From Cristatella mucedo (Eukaryota > Bryozoa > Phylactolaemata > Cristatellidae): 64,000 nucleotides of DNA. The stretch is from the NCBI GenBank assembly GCA_009760855.2, contig WPIO01000072.1:790501-854500 (forward strand). The letters run 5' to 3'. Below the pieces are notes generated by a model. It saw nothing but the letters and a program-made list of their open reading frames with translations, searched no databases and was not told the DNA's origin. The translations under genes were made by a program, and so were the position numbers. Positions 11,882 to 63,960 of the stretch are shown one piece after another; the first letter of the stretch is position 1; each line of letters opens with the position of its first letter.

Positions 11882-28605
<16,724 letters not shown>

Positions 28606-38997: not shown

Positions 38998-39079
38998 CTA
39001 CGAATAATACATGCCCGGTGCATCTGGGTGTACAGTCGGTGCATCCTCTGTATCCTCTTCATTTTGTCGCTCACTCAGG
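38998..39079 (-). pseudogene. AGO unit A exon 13 (C-terminus)
   Basis: Acceptor CTTTTTAG|C; acidic stretch ERQNEEDTEDAPTVHPD, then G-M-Y-Y-S and TAG at 39000-38998, with TGA two codons further. Matches the M-Y-F-A end of animal AGOs. Confidence 0.88.
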
Positions 39080-39230
39080 CTAAAAAGAAAGCGTCAATCC
39101 AACAACTGCTGGGCGAAAGCTATGCCAGCCATCGGGCAATTGTCATTGGAATCTAGAGAGCTTCAACTTTAACTGCACGCCTATGTGTGGGCGCATGCAA
39201 AAGTGCGACATCGTGGCAAGCTTTGCTTAC

Positions 39231-39420
39231 CCGCTTCCAAGGTAGTTACGACACATAGAAGCTGCTAGTTGGGCATAGTAGCAAGGCGCTGTTATCGAGA
39301 TGCTTCTCAAGCTTCTGGTGACTCCATAGCACAGACAGTTGGACAGCTGCTCCCAGACGTTCAAATCAAACCGACTGTCATCGTGCATCACCGTGTATTG
39401 TGTCGGTCGGGCTCTGTCCC
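39231..39420 (-). pseudogene. AGO unit A exon 12 (PIWI end, catalytic His lost, frameshift)
   Basis: Acceptor TTTTAAG|GGG, donor GCGG|GTAAGC. Starts G-T-E in the spliced frame; two extra C (near 39411-39409) shift to the frame that reads RPTQYTVMHDDSRF, LSNCLCYGVTRSLRSISITA and CYYAQLAA. The length (190) is 2 nt over what the two neighbouring phases require. The family His of Y-Y-A-H-L is Gln. Confidence 0.9.
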
Positions 39421-40341
39421 CTTAAAAGTAACGAATACATTTACAAACTAATGCATCCTTAGTCGTACCAACTGGTATCAACGGAGCTCCACTGCGACGA
39501 ATAGTTAATAACTCTCATAACTATGTATGCTTGTATCGAGGAGTTTCAAGTGCAGCGAGCACGCAAACGACAGCAATGCACCGTGAGTAGCCATGCACGT
39601 AAGAAGCCTAAGAAGATCGTGAGACGAATGGAGGAGCCAGGAGAGCACCGGTACAGCTGGGAAGCGACATTGACCGCCCTCTGTTCCTATGCCCGGCCGT
39701 CTCCAACGAAGCAATTATGTCTCGATTCCACTCGATGAACAACTGCTGAGTTTGTGTCCAATAAACAGTGTGATTTTGTGGGCTACTTTCCATTACTTAG
39801 CGGCTCTGGCCAAGCCTAAACAAAAACTTTGCAGGTCCTGCCCCTATATGAAAATGTTGGCTCCCACACTGCATTTAGGCATGATGACAGGACCCGTGAC
39901 AACCACCGAGATGCTACACAGATTTATGAAGGTTGAAATTAGCACCGTGAATAATAAAAGCTCTTTATTTAGAATATTATGTAGTACCGAAGCTATGGTA
40001 TGGATTTTTCCTTAGCCTACCGCTCACAGCCTTAGACACGACAGCTCAAAATGTGAAATTGACTTTGCATAAGTATGCCACTTCATAGAAAGCCTATCCA
40101 GTGAGCTTCTAGCTTATCGTACGATGTAACGCTTTCTATCTAACATCAAAATCCTGCAAAACATAGGCTGCCTGAAACGCGCCAAAGCAATCGAATGCTT
40201 GAAGCGAGAGAGTAAGCGGGCTGGTTCGAGCTTAAGCTATAGTGACCTAGGTCGCAACGCTAGTACGACGTATTCAGGCTTGAAAGTAGGTAGACTCGGT
40301 ACGCAGGATCTGACAGACACGTGAGTCACAGAAAGACTTAC

Positions 40342-40581
40342 TTGAGCGCCTCCGTGGCTGCAGAGGTAGAAACTCGGCAATCCTCGTTTTACCATTGTGT
40401 TGTCCACCACAGTTCCCGCTGCTACGTTGACAAAGCCGTCCTTTTTCTTGTGAGTGGGCGGCGAACGAAATAGCCGGACGTGGTGCCGTTTCCGGACGAC
40501 GATGTAAGTGATGGCTGGCTTGTAAGTTGACTCGAGAGAAGTGCAGGCACTTCGAATTGCTAGCAGCTCCTTCACGAACAC
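40342..40581 (-). pseudogene. AGO unit A exon 11 (PIWI core)
   Basis: Acceptor GTACAG|GTG, donor CTCAA|GTAAGT, 80 codons, no stop. ELLAIRSACTSLE, YKPAITYIVVRKRHHVRLF, AAGTVVD and FYLCSHGGAQ are diagnostic for the AGO clade. Confidence 0.96.
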
Positions 40582-42683
40582 CTGTACGAGCCCGGAGGAT
40601 GGGCGAGAGCTCAGCAGGTGGTTAGCATGGCTTGATAGAGGGTGCGAGAGAGAGAGAGAGAGAGACGGTAAGATCTATAATCAAGCTGGAGCGTTGTATT
40701 GACGATGCTTTACAAAACCTGAAGCACGTAGTTTTTTCGAGTCGCAAGTGGCCGTTCCAGCCTAGGGTAAGCAGTGGTAACCGTCATAAAGACCATTGTG
40801 CCGCTATATAAATGAAGCTGTAAACGGAGTAAGTCTTTTCCAGAATACGTCTAAATGAGTTAGTTAGTATTATCAGTTAGCATCATCAGTTTTTATTGAG
40901 AGCATGCATGACAGTCGGCTTTAGCCTTCAATTTCATGTACCTTATAAATTAGCCTTCGTGCTTATCTCGTCTACCCACTTTGGAGCACACGTGATGGGT
41001 GACCAATTAGTCTTGATACTCAGACTATCAAAATCTCTACGGTCACCTTGTATCAGTTTGGCGTAATATTACTGGTCACTCGTCAGTAGAAAATACTATA
41101 TATAAGCAACATATTCAAAATTTCCAGCCTTTGACATGACGCATTCATTTCAAAATTATTAATAGCACAAGCTGTTTTCAATATTGCACGCTTATCTAAG
41201 GCGATACATAACAAGGCATGTTAATCTATAGCCAAGTGTTGGTGAATGCTTCCTACCTCATCAAGTTTCCTTTCTGGAGGTTCGTAGCGATAGAAAACGA
41301 TTCGGACTGGTTTTAATTTCGAGCACTTGTAGAATTGTAAAAGTCTTTCACGAACCATGGCTGCTAAATCCACAATATGCTCTTCCCCTTTCTCTTGAAG
41401 TCGTATTCCCGACGAACCATAAACAGGGTGATGACAGGCGGTTCCTACGACCTAGAAAAGAAGGTAGTGCTTGAACCACACTTTTCGTCATCAGATGCTG
41501 TTTCATTTTGATTGAGACCTTCAGCAACATGGATGGCACAGAAACGTACAACGGTTGACGGCAGCCGTCAGACTAACATGTGTACACATTACCAACGTAA
41601 AAATACATCGTAAATTCTTGATATTACCTATAAACAGCACAGCAGCAACAGCTGGTACACTTCCTTGTATTTTCCTTGAGACTATTCTTTCGCCCACTTG
41701 CCATCGGAAGGCGTTAACGATTAACATCGCCTGACTAAAGCATAGTAAATCTTTCTTAACACTAATCGCCTTTTAGCAACCTCAGAATGGACTTTCGCTA
41801 AAATAGCGATTGACCGAGTAAATCACCTGGTCGTACAAGAATTCTGATATTGATTACAAATTTTATATCCGTTCAGCGCCCTAATCGATACAAATTTCTT
41901 TCTAGGCTGACGTCACATATTGAAAAACCATTGCTCGCCATTGGACTGATAGCATTCAAAGTGATTTTACGTGGCTTCCCACGATCAGTCTGGCTTGTAG
42001 CTTTCTCTAAAGCTCGTTTGAAATTGGCGCAAAGCTCTGCAGCTCGTCTGGTCGGTCGTCTACGAACTAGCAGCTAGGTCATACGTCTGCCTCAGCTCGA
42101 CCTGGTTGCCTGAAGCTCGGTGATCTTTCTTCAAGATCCTCTGTTTGGCTAGCACGTCGCCCCACTCTTTCCGATGCGCGAACACGATGTATGCGAACGT
42201 AGATTCTTTTAATCAATCATTTCATCAGTTTAAATTGTTGATGAAATAGAAGAAGGTGTTGGACTATTTTATGTTTGTACATTTTAGATGCAGGCTAGCG
42301 TCTTCGTCGTTTCCGGGCATTCGTCTAATTGCTTTAGTTACATTATCACTTTAGCTTGGGTCATATCAGGGAGATTGTGGTCAAACTTGGTCACTGACTT
42401 TGAGCTAGACACCAACTTGTAATTGAACCATAGTCAGCCGCATTTTAAACCAAGATATTTAATTAGAAACAGGATGCGTGCGGATGACTACCAAAGTATT
42501 AGTAAGGAGTAAACCTGCCAGAAGAGGTCTTTTTCGGTGAGGCTGAAGCTGGCTAGTAGTAACCAGACAAATGAGCTTTCTCTCAAGCGAATCACTTACT
42601 TTTTCTATTAATCTACTCTATACTATTCACCTCTTCAATGATATATTCTATTAATTCCGATTTACATTAATATTAATACAAAC

Positions 42684-42833
42684 CTGAGCTTCAGATGACA
42701 AAAATTTGGGCTGGCTCAAGTAAACAAGAACTGGCACGATTGGTGGTATGTCAGTAAGGTAGGCTGCCAAGGATTTCAACAGTGGCGACGACATGAAGAC
42801 GGTCACAAATGATGTCATGCATTTTGCCCTTTT
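42684..42833 (-). pseudogene. AGO unit A exon 10 (PIWI, Glu finger and second Asp lost)
   Basis: Acceptor ATTCCTAG|AAA, donor GCTCAG|GTTTGT, 50 codons, no stop. Aligns by position and by LKSLAAYLTD / VLVYLSQ to Q-D-L-A-A-M and I-I-F-Y-R-D. The Glu and Asp positions are not conserved. This is the most diverged exon. Confidence 0.6.
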
Positions 42834-43001
42834 CTAGGAATTAGAGCAAAATTTCACGAAATTACAGCTTCCGCTTCTATCTTGGTGACTTTGAAGGGAA
42901 CAAAGCCGCATTTCTAGTGCAGGCAAACAAGTGATCATCTAGAGAACGGCGGCACTGGTTGCACGAGAGAGAAACTCTCTGCCACCCTGTGGAATACTCA
43001 C

Positions 43002-43243
43002 AGCCGCTATGGACGGCTTTGCCGTTTTTCCCGGCCGCGACTGGCTGAGAACGGCGCCGATGACGATGATGGGCAACGTGAAGGCCAGACTCGGATAGCT
43101 CGATGGGTCAATGGCGCAATTTATGCCACCCGCTTTGACGTTGATTTTCTGAGCTATATTCATCAACTTTTCCGGAGTTGACGTCAGGACATGCTTTCGC
43201 AGAACGCACTGAGTGGCCAGGCCCAAGACTCGCTTCACTTCAC
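43002..43243 (-). pseudogene. AGO unit A exon 9 (MID/PIWI, first catalytic Asp lost)
   Basis: Acceptor GCTGTAG|GT, donor GCGGCT|GTGAGT (phase 0). [18 protein letters not shown], then [10 protein letters not shown], then [16 protein letters not shown] where slicing AGOs have GADVTHP or GADVSHP. K-P-S-I-A-A follows as expected. Confidence 0.93.
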
Positions 43244-43395
43244 CTACAGCGTGCCATCCGCCACGTGCCGAATACTGAGAGGCATCAGCTGGCCGAGCGT
43301 TGCCTTCCAGGGCGGCAGCACTGGACAAGTAACGTCGGGCAGGTAAAACTGAAGGCAGACACGAGCGGACGCTCTCTCGGCCTTGTCGCTCTCAC

Positions 43396-43601
43396 CATAC
43401 AGCTTCGTTCTCCCATCGAACACGACGAGCACCAGCTGCAGGTCGCCCTTAGATGCTTGGAGACGTGCCAGCATCTCTTTTGGAGATGAGGGCTTGCCGC
43501 TCCAGTTGAAGATGCCCGAGGCTTTCTGCATTTGCATGCCGGCGGTGATGCACACGCGGCACAGATCCTTAGCGAAGTCAGTGCAGCAGCAAAGGTAAGC
43601 A
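43396..43601 (-). pseudogene. AGO unit A exon 8 (MID)
   Basis: Acceptor CTCTCAG|T, donor TATG|GTGAGA (phase 1). DFAKDLCRVCITAGMQMQ and GDLQLVLVVFDGRTKLYG match the MID consensus; no stop. Confidence 0.9.
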
Positions 43602-43737
43602 CTGAGAGCTGGTAAACATGCTTCGATGCCCGACTGAGCGGCCGGCACAGCGATGGATCTCGATCGGTGGCACCAGCCACCAGGCAGCGCTCCGTCGTAT
43701 TCGAACCGAGCAATGCTTCGGCGGCGAGAGAGCTAAC

Positions 43738-43859
43738 CTTAGAGCAGCATTACTCAGATGTTCCTAAGAAACGAAGCTGACGACAACCCAGCTGCTGACC
43801 GAGGCGCTCTTAAAAAACCTTATGTCGTGCATCTTCCACACTCCATCTAACGGCTTCAC
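43738..43859 (-). pseudogene. AGO unit A exon 7 (MID)
   Basis: Acceptor TTCGTAG|GTG, donor CTAAG|GTTAGC (phase 2). VKPLDGVWKMHDIRFF, then SSWVVVSFVS and TAG (43766-43764), then EHLSNAAL before the donor. Confidence 0.8.
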
Positions 43860-43975
43860 CTACGAAAAAGAGGGGCGGTCAAGTGAAGCCGGAAGTACAG
43901 GAGCTAGCAGGCAAGTTCGATTCATTCTGTGAAATATGGCAACCGCACAGACGTGAGAGTCAGCTGCTTACGCAC

Positions 43976-44104
43976 TTGTTTTCCTGTGCCATAGAGAATA
44001 TTGGGAACTGAAAGTATGCGCCCGCTCACTACCACCATGGTCTTGTTCACAGAGACACCGAGTGCCTTCAGATTGGGATCTTCATTAAAGACTTTCACGT
44101 CGTG
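43976..44104 (-). pseudogene. AGO unit A exon 6 (linker 2 / MID start)
   Basis: Acceptor CAACTTTAG|CAC, donor CAA|GTGCGT. VFNEDPNLKALGVSVN and SGRILSVPNILYG match the F-N-x-D-P and G-R-x-L-x-x-P-x-I-x-Y-G signatures. Confidence 0.92.
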
Positions 44105-44783
44105 CTAAAGTTGGAAATAAAGTTATTTTATTGGTCACCACTTGCATCATGTCTGCCAGATATCCTACCTATGTAATAACATTAATAAATCTTTTCCTAC
44201 AGCTGCGTTAAAAAAAGAATCGGTCTGTATCCAGGTGCTTTCTAACTCTCCGTAAGGGAAACTACAAGCAAGGATTAATGGCATGGAAGGCGTCATGCTC
44301 AAACAAGCATGCAATAGCACTAAAGTAGAAGCATTAAGTCAACTCTTAATAGTAACTATAAGGCTCTCGGATAGTCTGGATTGTGCTCAAAGGGGGACAT
44401 GCTCTCAAACGCGATACAAGATTGGTAACAACCAAATTAATTAGCATCAAGGTATGCTGCCCGTGCTAGACAAGTGTGCACAAGCACAATCTGAGGATGG
44501 CTAGTTAATAGGACTCTCTGTCGATAACACTCACTCAATCGTGCACTGGTGAGCAAAGGACATTGGAAAGTATGCACAGTGTGACGCGATGCAAAGATAT
44601 GCAAACTGTGGTGCTATACAGAAGTATCTCGCCATCGCCGTTTATCAAGACGTACACGGCTTAAAAAGTGCCAACCCATATGACAGTGACTCAAACAAAG
44701 CATAATTAAACCTTTGCTTTAACGTCTTAAAATCAGCTGATTATACCATGTTATTCGAAAGTACAAAAATCCATGGGAATCCA

Positions 44784-45010
44784 CTAACTTATGGTACGGT
44801 CTCTGAGGAACGTGAAGTAAGTAGAGGGCACAGGTAATCGACCAAATTCAGTAGAGCGCACGGTGCAACGTAAGGCGTGAAGTGACACTAACTCAGATAA
44901 GTAAGCCAGAAGAAGAGGATGTAAATACCCAAATTTTATGACAGCACAGCACCTTGACGTCGAAAAACAACTTGATAGACAGACGGTGCAGAGCACGCAG
45001 CACTAGCCAA
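44784..45010 (-). mobile_element. LINE fragment in AGO unit A intron
   Basis: Degenerate LINE C-terminal region on the minus strand: 'LLLAYLSELVSLHALR' and GRLPVPSTYFTFLRDRTIS. Confidence 0.6.
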
Positions 45011-45646
45011 CTCGGAAGTTGTGACGTTTACGACAAATGAGCCTGATTGTCAATTTTTGCAATGATCTCAGCTTTTTAGTGCATTAGCAGGAAGGCCTTT
45101 AATTGGAGAGTTTTTCTACTCGGCATGTCGCGAATGCATGGCCTGCTTTAACGTGGTATCCGCATCCAAGCATGCACTAATGTTTGCAATACCTTAGATG
45201 ACAGTAGGCCGACTTGAGGATGGAGCTAGTGTGCTCATTTAGAAATTGATCGTTTTTCGAATATGGCAGTACATAATTAGGTGCGGCCGATTAGGAGAAG
45301 TGGGTTTTTGGAAATCCTAGTTTCCGAATACAACTTAATTTTCCAATATCTGTAATTTGGTTTTGTCGTCATTCAATATGAGAAAATTTGTTACCGTCCC
45401 ACTGGGAGGTCAGAGAGTTTGAGATTCCAGACGATAGGGACGTATCAAGGCAAGTAGAGCTGTCTGTTAGACTCTTAAAAATGAAAGCCTGTTACACATT
45501 GTCTATTGCATTGAGTTGAGGGCACGTATGAACTGTCAAAGGAATTAGACCTAAAACAAGTCCTTGAGGCATCCTACTCATTTTGCCAACCACCCTTCGA
45601 AAGTTAATAATAGGACAGACAGTTTGGCTAAGGCTTGTTTTACTAC

Positions 45647-45724
45647 GTTAGTTATTCGGGGTTTTGGTAAATCTCTGCATCTACGAAGACGAGCAGTAGG
45701 CAGGAAGGAGTCAAGAGGGCTAGC
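45647..45724 (-). other. Candidate missing AGO exon (PAZ-MID linker)
   Basis: 26 open codons with TARLRRCRDLPKPRITN, vaguely like the T-A-R-x-A-P-D-R linker that must lie between exons 5 and 6, in phase 0 at both ends (AGGAAG|GCT, AAC|GTAGTA). Both splice sites are poor. Low confidence. Confidence 0.2.
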
Positions 45725-46383
45725 CTTCCTGGACCGCCTCAGTAAATTCAAGATCACGGTAGCAGGGACAGACTTGAAGATGGACAGTCATGAAGAGCAT
45801 GCAACCCAAATTACCACACGTTTCAAAGCACACATGATTACACTTTGCTCTTATAGAAGTTGGACTTGGCTTTGGCTATGATGCATGACCTACAATAGTC
45901 CTTATATGCCAGTAGACGGACATTGTGCCCTGAAGAGTAACACGTACTGAAGCATGCTCAGATGAGCACTCAGTGATCACGGCAACAAAAACAAAAACAA
46001 AGACAAGCTGACTCGAGCACAGCAAGTAATGTTCCTCAGGAACACCTTATTCGGTCTTATGAGATTCCCCGAGTGTTCTTAGCTGCATTGTATAGCAGAG
46101 GTCTAACCTGGGCCTCTCTCCCAGCTTTGGCTGAGAAAATCTGGCTGACGAGTGCTAGCAAGCACATTATACATTGGATGACACGGCAAAGCACACTGCC
46201 CATCAGGCATTATCCCACTTTGTGCGTAATGAGAATACACGTACCGAATCCTCAATCATTCTCTTTCTGGTATTAGCATCAAACATGGTTCTCTGCAATA
46301 CATGGTTGGTATGTTAGTAAGTACAACATATTCGCACTAAATGTCAACAGCAAATCAACGATGATGGAGATCCCGATATTCAC

Positions 46384-46603
46384 CTGTATGATTTCCGAAG
46401 ATTGGGCCTCAGTGACCTTGTTTTTGCAGTGCTGTCCCTTCGCAATTGAACATACTTCCAATGGTAAGTAGGTGTGCCTGTGCTCTGGGTACATCTGGAG
46501 GCAGGGCAAATTTGGATATTTCAGAATGAAGTTATGCTGCTGAAGGAAATACTACTCAACAGTGATTGAAGTCGACGTTCCGTCAGCCTTATTCCACGTG
46601 AAC
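46384..46603 (-). pseudogene. AGO unit A exon 5 (PAZ, second part)
   Basis: Acceptor TCGTTCAG|G, donor ATACAG|GTGAAT (phase 0). FTWNKADGTSTSITVE, then TAG (46554-46552), then YFLQQHNFILKYPNLPCLQ and HTYLPLEVCSIAKGQHC. The reading frame is otherwise perfect on both sides of the TAG; the site could derive from GAG by one change. Confidence 0.92.
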
Positions 46604-46914
46604 CTGAACGACAGCCGAGAGTCATCTTAGCAACCGTGTTGGCTTGTAAGAAAGCCTAACCGGGCACAGAAGCCAAGCAAGGACTAGAGCGCCGGAGTTG
46701 CACAGGGGGGCTGTGGGTATCCTGTAGCCTGGCCATGCACCAAGGTGCCAGCCGCCGCTAAAGCTCGCCACTGGCCGCCCGAACGGGTGTGTGCCTCGGC
46801 TCCCCCCTAACAGGCCAGACCAAGGGTGGCAGCTGCCATCCCTGCCACCCCATGGCTTCGCCTCTGACCAGGCAGAAGGCTTTAAGAGATATGGCGAGCT
46901 CTTCGCTTTCTGAC
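46604..46914. other. GC-rich intron 4 of AGO unit A
   Basis: 310 bp, far more GC-rich than the neighbouring introns, with poly-G and poly-C runs. Not matched elsewhere in the window. Confidence 0.5.
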
Positions 46915-47137
46915 CTGTGCCTGCTGGCCGGCTGACTGGTTATTCCGAAAACTCTTCGCCTGAAGTTACGAATACTGGCATAATTGATATCCACCTTAAG
47001 TTCTTTGATCTCATGCAGCAGCGTTTCTCTTTTAGTTTGACTGAGATTTTTTCTTTCAAGATCAAAATCATTGATACGCAGGAGCTCCTTCAAGACGTTG
47101 ATTATTGGTTGTGGTTTATGGAAGACAGCAGATGTCA
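46915..47137 (-). pseudogene. AGO unit A exon 4 (PAZ, first part)
   Basis: Acceptor ACGTTGCAG|TG, donor CACAG|GTCAGA (phase 2). TSAVFHKPQPIINVLKELL, HEIKELKVDINY and FGITSQPASRH match the PAZ domain. Confidence 0.93.
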
Positions 47138-47346
47138 CTGCAACGTAACGTCAATGGCTTTACGATACAAAGCACGAACTTCTCACCTAAAGTTGCTGTT
47201 GCTTTCTAATAACCTAATGATACTAATAATAAGTCGCTTTGGCGCAGTCCAAACATCAATAAATATATAATCAGATCTTTGCATGTGTCATCAGGCAAAG
47301 CGATAGGCTAGCATTATTTACCCACGTTATATCAAGATTAAACAAG

Positions 47347-47412
47347 CCAATGTAAAGCACCTAGAAAGAGGTTGAGTTATCTGAGGGCGCTTTAAAAATA
47401 ACTTATTATTAT
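47347..47412 (+). mobile_element. LINE 3' tail in AGO unit A intron
   Basis: 'caatgtaaagcacctagaaa', GAGTTATCTGAGGGCGC and (TTA)n only. Confidence 0.7.
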
Positions 47413-47519
47413 TACTATAAGCAGGCAAGCACAAAAGGGAATAAGAATCGAGTCAGGCTACCACATAATTGGAGGTCTGGTTTATTGCATGCACTGAATC
47501 ACTCACAGATAAGTACAGG

Positions 47520-47770
47520 CAATTGCCATGAACTAAAATTTAAGCAGGTGCATCTCTATGAGAATTAAATGATGTAACCTCATTGCAGGTGGTGACCAAC
47601 CCAAAAAGCAAAGTCCAGATTTCAGAGGATAAAAACAGAAGGTCTCATTACCAATTGAATTCAGTCTAATGCTACGAAGGGCGAGACGTTCACAATCAGA
47701 GAAGTGAGTGGTACAACAACACAACGGAGAAGTGAGGAGATCAAATAGGTAGGCCGATGCTAGCAAGTCG
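47520..47770 (-). mobile_element. LINE fragment in AGO unit A intron
   Basis: Minus-strand remnant: 'LASAYLFDLL', RLNSIGNETFCFYPLKSG, EMHLLKF; a worn version of the family C-terminus. Confidence 0.6.
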
Positions 47771-48089
47771 AGCGACCATTAAACCATATAGAAGATTTTC
47801 CTGTCTGTGTGACGCTTCGTAGAAAAGGAGCAAGTGAAGTTCAGAAAATGGTCGTACATGAACGGTCGACAATAGACCACGCGAGTAGCCGATTTCGTCA
47901 TTAGCTGCATACAAGGAAGTGGTCAGGCCAAGAATACCGAATACAATCAATTGGAACCAGTTTTAACAGGGTTGATTTCAAATTCAAATTAGCAGCTTTA
48001 TACCGCACGCCTTTATTCCGTTATCCAAAACGTTTGGGACGATATCTGAAATTCCGAGGCTTCTGCCCAAATAAAATCCCTGAGCCACA

Positions 48090-48100
48090 ATATATACCAG

Positions 48101-48191
<91 letters not shown>

Positions 48192-48265
48192 TTATAGATA
48201 TATATATATATGTGTGTGTCGTGTATATATATATATATATCATATATTTATATATTTTGTGTATA
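48090..48265. repeat. (TA)n microsatellite in AGO unit A intron
   Basis: About 170 bp of TA repeats with a few CATA and GTGTGTG interruptions, in the intron downstream of exon 3. Confidence 0.95.
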
Positions 48266-48452
48266 TATAATATATCTATGTGTGTACATGCGTTCGGTTA
48301 GTGCCGCGTATTGGCTCATTATAAATCTCACATTCGCACAAAATTTTCATAATTTACCGACACAAGGAAAAAACTCAAGCTTACACTTAGCCCTAATAAC
48401 CAACTTCAAACATGGCCTTATCACAAATCATCAATCCGGGCATTTTACTTAC

Positions 48453-48768
48453 GGTCTCTGTTTAACAAAGGCAATGGGTTCCACGTTGTTGAAATCAACT
48501 CTTGGTAAAGTCCGGGCCACAGCTCTCGACCGCTGCCCAGGTCGTGAGGACTAACAAAAAATACAGATCGGCCAATCGAAACGCCGTTTGCTGATGCAAG
48601 GTGACGTAAAATTGCGTCCAATGCAGGGGTGGCTTCGGATGAAATCTTTTTCTCTCTTCTTTCGCCAGCTCCAACACTTGTAAAGTTTATTTCTGCCACC
48701 ATTTTGACGAGAATCTGATAAGTTTCGACTCGTTGCTTTACGCACCAACTTATAGTTTTCTCCTCATT
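48453..48768 (-). pseudogene. AGO unit A exon 3 (L1 region)
   Basis: Acceptor CTGTTGTAG|AAT, donor GACC|GTAAGT (phase 1). No stop in 105 codons. Contains PALDAILRHLASANG, SIGRSVFF and LGSGRELWPGLYQ, which match the AGO linker 1 consensus. Confidence 0.92.
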
Positions 48769-48956
48769 CTACAACAGAAATGTGCTTCAGACAGCTAGGC
48801 ACTGACACCTTCAGAAGACTGGTTAGTTGAAGAGGCCACTTCGACGGCTACGTGAATCATGGATAATCTGTCTTCTGAACGTCGATGCAAGTACAACTAT
48901 ATTGAATACTAAATTATATAACCTTCTAGAACAATATTTTTAGTTTAAGACAAATT

Positions 48957-49105
48957 CTGACTACTAAAGAGCGTTGCACAACCAATGAACGATTAGCGAA
49001 TGTTCCTTCGAACTTCTAACTAAAGAGGCGACAGTGGTATGTTGGGCTGTGAAACGATAACGTGGCAGTTTCATGCATGCATGCAGTCTGAAAGCATTAA
49101 AAAAG
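48957..49105. repeat. 148-bp direct repeat, copy 1
   Basis: Starts CTGACTACTAAAGAGCGTTG and ends at 'gaaagcattaaaaa'. Repeats with few differences at 49634-49782, both within intron 2 of AGO unit A. Confidence 0.9.
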
Positions 49106-49633
49106 TTCTTAACGGTCGAGGACCCGAGCGCTTGAATAATTCAATGTAACAATCAGAGGAAAATTCCGGTTCTATGCGCATGGTAGTCTTCAATGCGTGA
49201 CTCAGTTAGTGCCCAGGTCTTGAAAAAGCATAAACTTGCTTATATGCAGACCAATACATCTTGTAGCGAATATGCAACATCATTATATACTTACTTTCAT
49301 GGCGTAGCAAGGAATAAGCAAAGAACTTGACCCAAAAAGTATGCCAACCAGTAACGAGGAATTGTTTTGAAAGAAGCGCTGAACCTCCACTTTCAGTGAA
49401 CGTAACCGGACTCCGGAAGAAGAGTGTTTTCAGACAATATATAGTGGTCATTCCTAGTAGGTTTGCACGCATATAGTCTACGCGCCGTTTTCAAATGAGC
49501 TGAACACATAAAGATGTAAGTGAGCAAGAGGCTTATAAAGTAAAATGAAATAAAATGCAAATAAAATATATTAAATAAATATAATATAACATATATAATA
49601 TAATATAAAATATTATAATAAATAATGATAATG

Positions 49634-49782
49634 CTGACTACTAAAGAGCGTTGCACAACCAATGAACGAATAGCGAATCTTCCTTCGAACTTCTAGCTAA
49701 AGAGGCGACTGAAGTACGTAGGGCTGTGAAACGATAACGTGGCAGTTTTATGCATGCATGCAGTCTGAAAGCATTAAAAATC
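49634..49782. repeat. 148-bp direct repeat, copy 2
   Basis: Second copy, 677 bp from the first; it ends about 40 bp from AGO exon 2. The 530 bp between the two is AT-rich (TATAA-type) in its second half. Confidence 0.9.
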
Positions 49783-49823
49783 CAACCAAATATAGCGAAT
49801 CTCCGAATGCCACCAATCCTTAC

Positions 49824-49935
49824 CAATTTGTCGAGATCACGGAAAGGTGTGCGGCTCTATATGTTGCTCATCCCGTCGTAAATGGCGAACGGGAGAAATT
49901 GAGCATTATGCTTCATCCAAGCATTGACAATGGCC
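49824..49935 (-). pseudogene. AGO unit A exon 2
   Basis: Acceptor CTTTTTAAG|G, donor TTG|GTAAGG. Reads AIVNAWMKHNAQFLPFAIYD then G-M-S-N-I-TAG, where the family has a Tyr (N-L-Y). Confidence 0.88.
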
Positions 49936-50010
49936 CTTAAAAAGAAGAATTTTCCGAAGATACTATTTTGTTCGTGCAGATGGTAGCTTGAAAAAGGAGC
50001 TAACTGTTAC

Positions 50011-50159
50011 CGGTTCATATTGGATATAATAGGAGCAGGTGAAACTTTGATGCTGTAATTATACACTTTGTCGAGGAAACCGTCTCTGCTGCGAATTACT
50101 TTAAAAAAGTTAGCATAGAGCTTGACTTCGTCAGGTCTGCTTTTAGAATCCTATTCCAT
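50011..50159 (-). pseudogene. AGO unit A exon 1 (N domain start)
   Basis: ATG GAA TAG at 50159-50151, then RPDEVKLYANFF and DGFLDKVYNYSIKV; donor AACCG|GTAACA (phase 2). If translation starts at this ATG, TAG is codon 3. Otherwise the TAG supplies the splice-acceptor AG and an upstream exon exists. Unit B keeps ATG GAA at the same place. Confidence 0.8.
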
Positions 50160-59524: not shown

Positions 59525-59660
59525 TTTAACAGCTTCCTTTTGTATTGCGGCAGAAGAGCCTTAAGAGTTATCTTGCATTGAAAAATTCGGGATCACCTAC
59601 TGCAGGGCTGGAACCCACGATCCGGTTAAAGAAAAGTCAAGCACCTAACCTTCGTTAAGA
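59525..59660 (-). mobile_element. SINE, tRNA-headed family 1, worn
   Basis: 'ttgcggcagaagagccttaa' and 'ctactgcagggctggaaccc'. Same position in the duplicated unit as 38245-38390. Confidence 0.6.
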
Positions 59661-60240
59661 CCCAGGTCCAAAAAATTGTCAGAACCAGTTCTTTTGCCTG
59701 TATCAGCTCATTTCCACAATTACGGGTACACAAACACTTGTCAAAGCGTCATATCGCCTTAAGAGACTGGCTGGCTGGCTGTCGCTTCTATCTCTGCTCT
59801 CTGACTATTTGAAGTCTACGCTTTCTTTAGTTTTCACACAGACGATTCGACGCAGTCACTGAAACGTTATTTTCAAAGTGCCAATAGTTCGTTTTTACTT
59901 TGTCTTGTCTTGAAATGTCTTGACTTTGTCTTGAAGCCCTCATTTGCAGCTAATACGGACATCCGAGCTGAGCATAAGCACTCCAATTATTTGTTCGTGG
60001 TATATCAATAGCGGAAGAAAACTGCGGCCATAACCATGCTTTGTAAGTAACACTGGCTTACGTGGACGAGCGTGCCCAACTGCAACAAGAATGCGAACAT
60101 AATGAATATCTTAAGAAGTGTAAAAATCTAGACGATTTAGGACTGAGCCTCCTAGTCATACTGTTTATTTGTCAGCTAGAGACTAAATAATTCAAAAAAC
60201 GATTAAATTTATTTCCAAAAACATTAATTGATTTCAGTAG

Positions 60241-60431
60241 CATATTCTACCAAATAAAAAAGAAGAAGAATGCATTGCTGGTGTTCCTGGGTCGGTGTAC
60301 GCTCTGGTGCCGACCCACTCGAATGCATTGCTCACTCGCTGTCCTAGGACAGAAATGTTTACACAACTGATAGGCGAAAGCTCTGCTATGTTAGCCATCG
60401 GCGGCCGATTTCTATCAAGTATCAAGTGCAT
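60241..60431 (-). pseudogene. AGO unit B C-terminal exon region
   Basis: The minus strand aligns with the end of unit A intron 12 and exon 13 (GQRVSNAFEWVGTRAYTDPG against SERQNEEDTEDAPTVHPDAP). Not a sensible C-terminus any more. Confidence 0.55.
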
Positions 60432-60559
60432 TATTATTATTATCTGGGGAGTGTCAACTTTAATAACCTATGCATGTGTGGGCGCTTGCAAAATCGCGAA
60501 GTCATGGCAACCATTGCTTACCTGCTTAGAAGGTAGAAATCTAAGCTTATTGAATTATT

Positions 60560-60770
60560 TAGCTTATGTAAGCTAATTCTTATATAGCTAATATCTTATA
60601 TATTTTATATTTTATAATATTTTATTTTATTTATTTTATAATATTTTATATTTTTATAGCTAATTTTAATATTTAGCTTATTTATTTATTTAAGCTTATT
60701 TAATTATTATTTATGCTTATTTAGTGAGATATATTTTAGCTTATTCAGTATATAAAGCTCTCTAAAAAAT
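60560..60770. repeat. AT-rich tandem-like block (TTTTATA / TTTAGCTTA units)
   Basis: About 200 bp, almost pure A+T, built of TTTATTTTATAATA and TTAGCTTATTTA-like units. It lies where the PIWI-end exon of unit B should be, and may have replaced it. Confidence 0.75.
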
Positions 60771-60969
60771 TAAAAATCTGCAAAATGCATCTTGCAAAGA
60801 ATGTGCAGAAGTAATTGAGTGCTTGAGGGAATACAGTTAGCGATTGGTGATGCCTTAAACTTAGAGTGACCTATCAATATAGCAAATCCTAGTAAGAAAT
60901 ATTCTGACTTGAAATTCGGTGAACTCTGGAGGCACGGTCTGACACATGCATCGTAGTAAGACTTAGTTA

Positions 60970-61199
60970 ATGGCCTCCGCGGTTGCAGAGGTAGAAACTC
61001 TCCTCTCCACGTGTTATCGAGTTGTCTGCTAAAGCTATCGCAGCTACGTTGACAAAGCCTTCCTGGTTTTATTAGAGGGCGCCGAAAGAAATAGCCGGAC
61101 GTTTTGCCGTTTCCGGACGACAATGAAAGTCATGGCTGGCTTTTAGTTCGGAAGCTTTATGCAAGCTTTTTGGATTGCAAGCAGCTCTGTCACGAACAC
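60970..61199 (-). pseudogene. AGO unit B PIWI exon
   Basis: VFVTELLAIQKACIKL, a TAA where unit A has TAC, then KPAMTFIVVRKRQNVRLF. A 1-nt loss follows before AFVNVAA, then FYLCNRGG. The acceptor AG is AA and the donor GT is lost. Confidence 0.9.
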
Positions 61200-61674
61200 T
61201 TGTGCGAGCACGGATGGACTAGAGCTGATCAGCGGTGCTTCATGACACCTTGTTAGCAAGGTTTGGAATGTTTCTTAAGTGCAAACGACGTCAAGAAACT
61301 ACACAACTAGTTATTTATGAGCCGATTCCACGGCAGAGCACTGCACTGAAAAACTAGAAAGCTCAGGGCCCCCTACATATATATACATTGTGGACAGGAA
61401 TCCTCCAACTCGTGCTGCTACTTAGTCGTCCCTTGAAAGAAAAAGTGGAGTCGCTGAAAATGTTCTGTCATTTCATTTCACACTCAATCTCATAGCGACC
61501 AAGACCAGATGTGATGCGATTACGAACACTGAACTAGCATATAGCTACTTTGTTCAAAAACTATGTATCACGACAGCTGTTTACACTTGCTGATTGACAA
61601 ACGAATCTGATCGTGGCTAAGGAGCAGTTTTTGAGTTTGCTGCCAGCATGTGTCGGAATGGTTTTTTCTGAACA

Positions 61675-61755
61675 CTTTTTACCTGTTTTTTGTTGAAGCA
61701 GCCAGCGGGCAAGATCGATTTGTTCCACGAAATATTCCAAGCGCATAGACGTGCG
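61675..61755 (-). pseudogene. AGO unit B second MID exon, remnant
   Basis: LEYFVEQIDLARWLLQ before a GTAAAA, weakly alignable with unit A exon 7. Placement mainly by order. Confidence 0.4.
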
Positions 61756-61773
61756 AACCCGCTACTTGTGCAC

Positions 61774-61900
61774 CTGGTTTCTTTGGCCATAGACAGTGCT
61801 AGGAGTTACAAGTAGACGCCCTGCCACTTCCATAGTAATCTTGGCCGCACAGACAGCGAGCTCCTTAAGATTAGGATCTGTATTTAATTTGCGTGCACCG
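61774..61900 (-). pseudogene. AGO unit B MID exon
   Basis: NTDPNLKELAVCAAKITMEV and AGRLLVTPSTVYGQRNQ before donor CAG|GTGCAC, in line with unit A exon 6. The acceptor AG expected upstream is missing. Confidence 0.8.
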
Positions 61901-62654
61901 TGGAATCAAGCCTCTATCCTGATGCCTGATAAATCCCTGCAAGGGAAACTACCATCAAGGGTTATTGGTGTGCAATGTATCATGTTCAAACAAGCATGCT
62001 ATAGCCCTAAGGTAGACGCTTAAAGTCACCTTTCAATAACAATTATAAGACTTCTTCGGTAGTTTATATAATGCCTAGAGGGTACGTAATCATTCAAATT
62101 GCCACTAGGTTTTTCCGTCTGACGATCTTGATTCCAAATTTGGTTTATTTTTGAAAGTTTCTTAGCTTTTTAAGATACTTTAAGATATAAGATACTAGAT
62201 TTAAGATACTTTACCAGACCAAACTTTGCCAGCAATTTCTAGATCTTTGAGTCTTCTATTGTTCAGACGTTGAATGAACAAAGATATAGAACAAAATAGC
62301 TTACTGTAAAATGTTTTTCTTATTCTCACCGTAGCTGTATCGATCGCCAGTTTTGGAAGTTTCTTTAGCAAACTGAAGAAAATCCTTTATTATCCGAGAG
62401 CATCAATTGGGCAAGATCGACTCTCTGATTAGGCCTTGTTAAGCATAGAGAAAAAACACTGGAAAATATTGACTTTAAAATTCTTAATAGACCAGTTGGA
62501 CACGTTCGAGGCCACGAAAACTCCCATGAGTTAAAGCTGCTTTAGCTACCTTGTACTTGTACTACAACTAATAAAAATTTCTCGACTTGATATGCCTGCT
62601 AGCTTGTGTTTTTTGCATATCTTCTGTCGTGGAGTTATTTTGAAGTAATTTTTA

Positions 62655-62817
62655 CAAGGGTAGGGGCGCCATTTGTAGCTTTGTCTCTGGACGCCCGAAA
62701 GGTCTCACTGCATTTATGTCTGGTCAGAACAAGTTGAAAGAAGTTAGCGTCGAGCTTGACATGATAACGTACGTATTTCAGCTTTAGAAGTTGTCTGTCT
62801 GAGTATGCTCCTTCCAT
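62655..62817 (-). pseudogene. AGO unit B first exon
   Basis: ATG at 62817 opens MEGAYSDRQLLKLK, then YHVKLDANFFQLV, aligned to RPDEVKLYANFFKV of unit A; then the similarity fades. Possible donor CTT|GTAAAA. Confidence 0.7.
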
Positions 62818-62843
62818 CGCTATAGACTGTTAGAAACAGTCCA

Positions 62844-63495
62844 CAGTCGTACCTCGTTTATCGCGATTAATCAGTTCCAGACTCAACCGCGATAAGTGAA
62901 TTTCCGCGAAGTAGAATTCTGTATTCATAAATTAAATATTTTCGGATTAGAGAATAGAAAACCAGTTCATGACCCTCTAAATACGGTTTTTTAAATTATT
63001 AGAGCCTTCTGGAAATGTAATAACAAGCCTTTATTTACCATTACACTCTCATTACCCAATATATTTGACAAATACGAGAAAATAAGACACGTTAGACGTT
63101 AGAAATGTGAGAGAAATTAACTTGAGCGACGCTGAGCCAATGAGTGGCCAGGATAAGAAGAGGATAGGATAGCCAATCGGTGAACAGCACGCTCTGATAG
63201 GCTTGGTTTCACCACTGCAGATTTTCTGGAAAACATTTCTTGCCCACACACAAGGAGCGGTCGAGCGGCTGCATCTGGCGTTGAAGCTTGTCGGGGGTGC
63301 TCGATTACATAGGCCTGCAGTCCCTACGTACAGTAATTTTACTTTTAATTGTAATACAGGGGTGTATGGTTGACTCAGACAACCGAGAGCGAGCTATATC
63401 ATTTTCACTATCTCGATTGCCTTTTTAATGAATATGAAAAACCGTAATAGCGTGAAGCCGCTAAATTCGAAGTGCAAAGTGGCGAGGGACGACTG
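62844..63495. mobile_element. Non-autonomous DNA transposon, 652 bp
   Basis: Terminal inverted repeats CAGTCGTACCTCG (62844) and CGAGGGACGACTG (ending 63495), 12 of 13 matching. Left subterminal part 'tatcgcgattaatcag', 'cgcgataagtgaat'. No transposase. It separates the unit B start from its homologous upstream flank, which is directly adjacent in unit A. Superfamily not decided; I saw no clear target-site duplication. Confidence 0.75.
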
Positions 63496-63499
63496 TATT

Positions 63500-63960
63500 T
63501 CAAATATTAAAGTCACCGCACCAAAATTTACTGATACGAAGCCGTTCGTATTTTAGCACAGGATCCAACATGCGGGCACAGTGCTGCATCTCTACATAGC
63601 AAAGAAAAACTACCGCAATTACCACCGTAATATTTGCAAATGACCTTGCTACACTGTTTGTAAAACATTTAAATTATATTTATGTAACTTAGACAATCAT
63701 TAATAATCTATAATTTTATAATATAGAACAATTGTATAATAGAAGATGATTCGTGATTTTTAAAACAAGAGCGTACTTATAAATAGAAAAAATTACCAGT
63801 GCCTACTAACTTGAATATCTTGTGCAGCATCAAACTTTCGGTACGTCCAAGCTTACCTTTATGCTGTTCAGACATTCCCCAACATCCTTTGCATGAGCTA
63901 TTGTCTAACATAGCCCTTGTGAGCCCACTAATTTCTTATGTAGGTGGTGTACAGAATTAT
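63500..63960. repeat. 5' flank of AGO unit B, homologous to 50190-50640
   Basis: 'aaagtcaccgcaccaaaatt', 'aatgaccttgctacactgtt', 'agacaatcattaataatcta' and 'cagacattccccaacatcc' follow unit A in the same order. The window ends within this block. Confidence 0.65.

Follow-up and report, generated by a model that had tools for sequence, protein, structure and literature searches.

A thirteen-exon Argonaute gene interrupted by three in-frame TAG codons is probably a young, tandemly duplicated pseudogene

An Argonaute gene in which the exon chain is nearly intact and the sure internal stops are all TAG raises the question of whether the gene has recently been lost or whether TAG is at times read there as a sense codon. 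We addressed this question for a locus (unit A, positions 50138-38998, minus strand) in the window, the whole 64,000-nucleotide stretch of DNA that was analyzed. We located unit A by aligning the sequence, both in translation and with splicing allowed for, to Argonautes of solved structure, and some exon borders were shifted by eye to better splice sites before joining. Judged from these alignments, it is a genuine AGO-clade Argonaute with 13 exons and the following parts:

50011..50138, minus strand: exon 1 (start of the N domain; 5' limit not fixed), from the splice-aware AGO2 alignment and the joined model
49824..49935, minus strand: exon 2 (N domain) with an in-frame TAG at 49859-49857 (Tyr in AGO2), from the AGO2 alignment and the joined model
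48453..48768, minus strand: exon 3 (N domain and linker 1), from the translated and splice-aware alignments and the joined model
46915..47137, minus strand: exon 4 (first part of PAZ), from the translated and splice-aware alignments and the joined model
46384..46603, minus strand: exon 5 (second part of PAZ) with an in-frame TAG at 46554-46552 (Gln in AGO2), from the alignment and the joined model
44266..44319, minus strand: uncertain candidate for the roughly 18 residues that are missing between PAZ and linker 2, inside a block conserved between units A and B
43949..44104, minus strand: exon 6 (linker 2), from the alignment and the joined model
43738..43859, minus strand: exon 7 (start of Mid) with a TAG at 43766-43764 (Gln of FAPQ in AGO2) if the better donor is used, from the alignment and the joined model
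43396..43601, minus strand: exon 8 (Mid), from the alignment and the joined model
43002..43243, minus strand: exon 9 (Mid and PIWI), first slicer Asp changed to Val, from the alignment
41257..41451, minus strand: exon 10 (PIWI), Tyr at the position of the second slicer Asp, from the alignment
40342..40581, minus strand: exon 11 (PIWI), from the alignment and the joined model
39231..39420, minus strand: exon 12 (end of PIWI), with the frame broken by a net 2 nt close to the exon start and slicer His changed to Gln, from the alignment and the joined model
38998..39079, minus strand: exon 13 (C-terminal tail), with TAG at 39000-38998 as its last codon, from the joined model

When joined, exons 1-11 give 720 codons with no remainder and with all phases kept, much as the initial annotation had described for the 13-exon chain, and all 12 introns in the model are GT...AG. 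The whole chain has 807 codons, 804 of them sense, and four clear defects. The C-terminus is family-like and ends, as had been proposed, on a TAG at the end expected for the family, with a TGA two codons further on. Intron 2 contains a 151-nt direct repeat (49103-48953 and 49780-49630, 93% identical).

Unit A has the same six-domain order as human AGO1-4 (the Pfam families ArgoN, ArgoL1, PAZ, ArgoL2, ArgoMid and Piwi, with the ArgoL1 and ArgoL2 matches falling slightly below the curated cut-offs), and among PDB entries it matches AGO2 and AGO1 best (E 1e-128 to 1e-123). With phmmer, the reading of exons 1-11 gives one continuous alignment to residues 5-720 of human AGO2, a distant reference for this gene (best chain, E 8.9e-128); exons 12 and 13, if read beyond the frame break, finish Piwi and the C-terminal tail. 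The guide 5'-phosphate pocket in Mid, the residues of which we take to be Tyr, Lys, Gln and Lys, is retained, with LYGEVKR, ATQC and KINVK of unit A aligning to AGO2. In contrast, three of the four positions that we take to be those of the slicer tetrad D-E-D-H are changed, the aligned residues being Val, Glu, Tyr and Gln, and unit A further differs from human AGO1-4 in its three in-frame TAG codons, its one frame break and its lack of a clean exon for about 18 residues. The tetrad is absent from some functional AGOs.

Exons 1-11 contain three internal stops, each of them TAG (49859, 46554 and 43766), which agrees with the initial annotation. As had also been reported, the TAG at 49859 is opposite a Tyr of AGO2 in the phmmer alignment; the one at 46554 is opposite a Gln rather than the Glu thought probable, and the one at 43766, for which the residue had been called unclear, is opposite the Gln of FAPQ. 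This third TAG is exonic only if exon 7 ends at the better donor, AAG/GTTAGC (43738); the splice-aware alignment picked the donor TTC/GTTTCT just before the TAG, thus avoiding it, and the fit of that donor to the consensus is very bad. Another TAG, at 50153, lies near the unfixed 5' limit of exon 1, where there are several AG acceptors including that TAG itself, and may be part of a splice acceptor. The three bases that follow the sure stops are AGC, TAT and GAA, respectively. Exon skipping around the stops was set aside because the stop-bearing exons 2, 5 and 7 (112, 220 and 122 nt) are not divisible by three and skipping any one of them singly leads to a frameshift, as was RNA editing of UAG to UGG (Trp), because the AGO2 residues facing the stops are Tyr and Gln.

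The remaining clear defect is in exon 12, where the 2-nt insertion reported initially is seen as a net shift of the frame by 2 nt close to the exon start; as spliced, the exon is read for ten codons and then reaches TGA, and there is no long homopolymer at the site. Between PAZ and linker 2, we saw no clean exon in unit A for about 18 residues. The candidate at 44319-44266 has the right length (54 nt). In the phase needed to connect exon 5 with exon 6 it contains TGA, TGA and TAA, and it is free of stops only in a frame incompatible with that join. This segment may be no exon; it proves nothing, and it casts doubt on the claim that the gene has only TAG stops, which holds for the three sure ones.

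How surprising three TAG codons are depends on how often each stop lies one step away. When all single-step changes to a stop were counted over the unit A model (804 sense codons), TAG accounted for 0.29-0.40 of them, depending on the weights given to transitions and CpG. The probability that three of three stops are TAG is 0.023-0.064, and the probability of three identical stops of any kind is 0.114-0.154, which is the fairer figure because the pattern was noticed after the fact. The initial annotation had expected random decay to give TAA and TGA as well; at these probabilities the all-TAG pattern is compatible with chance and weak as a signal.

Unit A has a tandem partner on the same strand and in the same orientation:

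59538..63713, minus strand: unit B, decayed tandem copy, recognized by blastn and tblastn against unit A in both flanks and in segments near exon 6, exon 11, the end of exon 12 and, weakly, exon 13

Unit B is much more decayed than unit A, having in its two recognizable exons the TAA noted initially and also a TAG, together with indels. Comparison of the two regions by blastn gave 12 pieces, eight of which are collinear with unit A: one lies upstream of exon 1, one each in intron 5, exon 6 and exon 11, one covers the end of exon 12 together with intron 12, and three follow the stop. A weak additional match around exon 13 was given by tblastn, and neither tblastn nor blastn detected exons 1-5 or 7-10 in unit B. 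Beyond the stop of unit A, a block at 38958-38674 is kept in unit B at 60217-59936 (74-76%) and could be a 3' UTR or an unrecognized exon. One of the three collinear pieces after the stop is a shared SINE-like repeat, the core of which, GTATAGCGACAGAAGAGCC, occurs in six copies in the window (4521, 7482, 12918 on the minus strand, 33003 on the minus strand, 38259 and 59542), five of them exact (mean of 0.01 expected). Since the copies after units A and B are at the same relative place, this insertion probably predates the duplication. A 19-base piece of a SINE-like repeat had no exact counterpart among viral contigs or GTDB genomes, and pieces of 18 and 17 bases had none in the literature library; a pattern from exon 11 hit two stretches of viral contigs, neither of which encoded a relative.

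For counts of identity between the units we used seven of the 12 blastn pieces, leaving out the SINE-like piece and four minus-strand repeat pieces. Identity in exons (303/397 sites) did not differ from that outside exons (745/997, P=0.58), a comparison limited by the small sample and by the fact that non-coding DNA could be aligned only where it is best conserved. Likewise, codon positions 1 and 2 (203/266) did not differ from position 3 (100/131, P=1.0), although this test has low power, as nearly all of its 397 exon sites come from two exons. The result was unchanged without the intron 5 piece or with the exon 6 and exon 11 pieces alone, and so no coding constraint is visible on the path between the two units. 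The number of stops points in a different direction: neutral decay since the split of the units predicts about 14.5 stops in unit A, compared with the three observed (P=0.0003), a number consistent with a neutral period of about 0.03 substitutions per site. Jointly, the absence of visible constraint and the scarcity of stops suggest a fast-changing protein whose frame stayed open until recently.

A second gene in the window that was checked for stops is a ceramide synthase-like gene at 20699-24153 (plus strand), in which a TLC domain (PF03798) extends over three open stretches. The Pfam-matched stretches have no stops in 192 codons, some edges of which may be non-coding. The first stretch starts within a TC repeat, and the last, read unspliced, reaches a TGA at 24259, although a further exon may follow; the claim that this gene, like unit A, ends on TAG was therefore not confirmed. 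An inverted duplicate (13630-13865 and 23962-24194, 92-93% complementary in two pieces) spans the last TLC stretch and amounts to a partial copy of the ceramide synthase on the other strand. A Tc1/mariner-type transposase remnant that matches the Sleeping Beauty structure is present at 15044-15493 (plus strand) in two frames with stops. The window gave no match to Rfam at gathering scores.

Sense reading of TAG, as Gln or Tyr, through recoding, a suppressor tRNA or programmed readthrough, with a protein still made, would account for all three sure stops being TAG and for two of them facing Gln in AGO2. We consider it extremely improbable, as the pattern has a chance probability of 0.02-0.06 for TAG or 0.11-0.15 for any one stop, and passage through all three sites would still leave a protein terminated by the exon 12 frame break; it was the one-step calculation and this frame break that led us to reject recoding as the main reading. 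The known animal readthrough context has CTA after the stop, and none of the three sites has it. A tRNA gene search of the 64-kb window found none, unit A itself ends on TAG where the family is expected to end, and the neighboring ceramide synthase is free of stops, its 192 codons, with edges that may be partly non-coding, being too few to decide. One variant, in which TAG would be decoded now and then as Gln in a rapidly evolving Argonaute and the exon 12 break would be separate, later or allele-specific, deserves just as little credence. Among titles and abstract openings listed by a literature search on nuclear reassignment and metazoa there was no case of stop reassignment in an animal nucleus; those listed dealt with ciliates, Amoebophrya, Blastocrithidia, algal mitochondria, bacteria, theory and engineering. 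Genuine sense decoding of TAG in a nuclear gene of an animal would, if true, be of wide importance, and both the statistics and the frame break speak against it.

The long open chain, with its other phases kept, implies either that the loss was recent or that the defects are allele-specific or errors. A gene that is functional in most individuals, with the assembly representing a null haplotype or with the stops and frame break being sequencing or assembly errors, would fit the mere four clear defects in 807 codons and the preservation of the other phases and splice sites. We regard this as unlikely, though less so than any code change, because four independent defects would be a large number to put down to error, the exon 12 break is not at a long homopolymer and the slicer tetrad has changed at three positions too. 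Alternatively, the locus might make no protein and still be transcribed, its RNA or small RNAs regulating a working Argonaute paralog. Pseudogene transcripts are a known source of siRNAs, according to a passage of PMC11114477. Units A and B are in the same orientation, however, and so would not form a hairpin, and tblastn with the unit A reading frames found no working Argonaute paralog in the 64-kb window; this role for the locus is very unlikely.

We therefore return to the pair of readings with which the locus was first presented. That initial annotation was largely right in what it observed, namely the chain and its three TAG codons, with the residue facing 46554 and the end of the ceramide synthase as exceptions; of its two readings, sense decoding of TAG finds no support, and recent pseudogenization is supported by the chance-compatible stops, the frame break and the decayed sister copy. 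Unit A is very probably a recently broken, tandemly duplicated Argonaute, that is, an ordinary young pseudogene for which no change in the code is needed. Like other duplicated (unprocessed) pseudogenes, it has kept its introns, adjoins a tandem copy and carries nonsense and frame defects, the coincidence of all-TAG stops being the sole difference. That coincidence, somewhat unlikely by chance (0.02-0.06), is a point against the pseudogene reading.

In the proposed sequence of events, a fast-evolving AGO-clade paralog in an animal genome, as gene structure and Argonaute type indicate, would have been duplicated in tandem to give units A and B, and unit B would have decayed early. Unit A, to judge from its few stops, would have remained protein-coding for most of the time since, losing three of the four slicer residues while changing fast, and would then have lost its function recently through three nonsense changes and the exon 12 frame break. 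The three stops would all be TAG by chance, aided by the fact that, if CpG is not specially mutable, TAG is the stop most often reached in one step from unit A codons. Two of the three sites are Gln in AGO2, and CAG to TAG needs one C-to-T step. We infer this order of events, and the loss of function in unit A, from features that are directly seen (the gene model, the stops, the frame break and the tandem copy).

No report of such an Argonaute pseudogene was evident among titles and abstract openings in the limited library searched. As context, passages of PMC8191739 describe the flatworm FLAgo genes, which are in tandem and have high substitution rates, a layout and rapid protein change that unit A shares. 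They carry the motifs TSKPxH and YSLHAA or YALHAA, whereas unit A has ARPTQY and YAQLAA, which do not match, although ARPTQY sits at the frame break and decay might have changed both positions. Argonautes of the siRNA class are patchily distributed, as stated in passages of PMC11114477. Units A and B would represent a familiar course of events, in which a pair of fast-evolving Argonautes turns over through duplication and loss.
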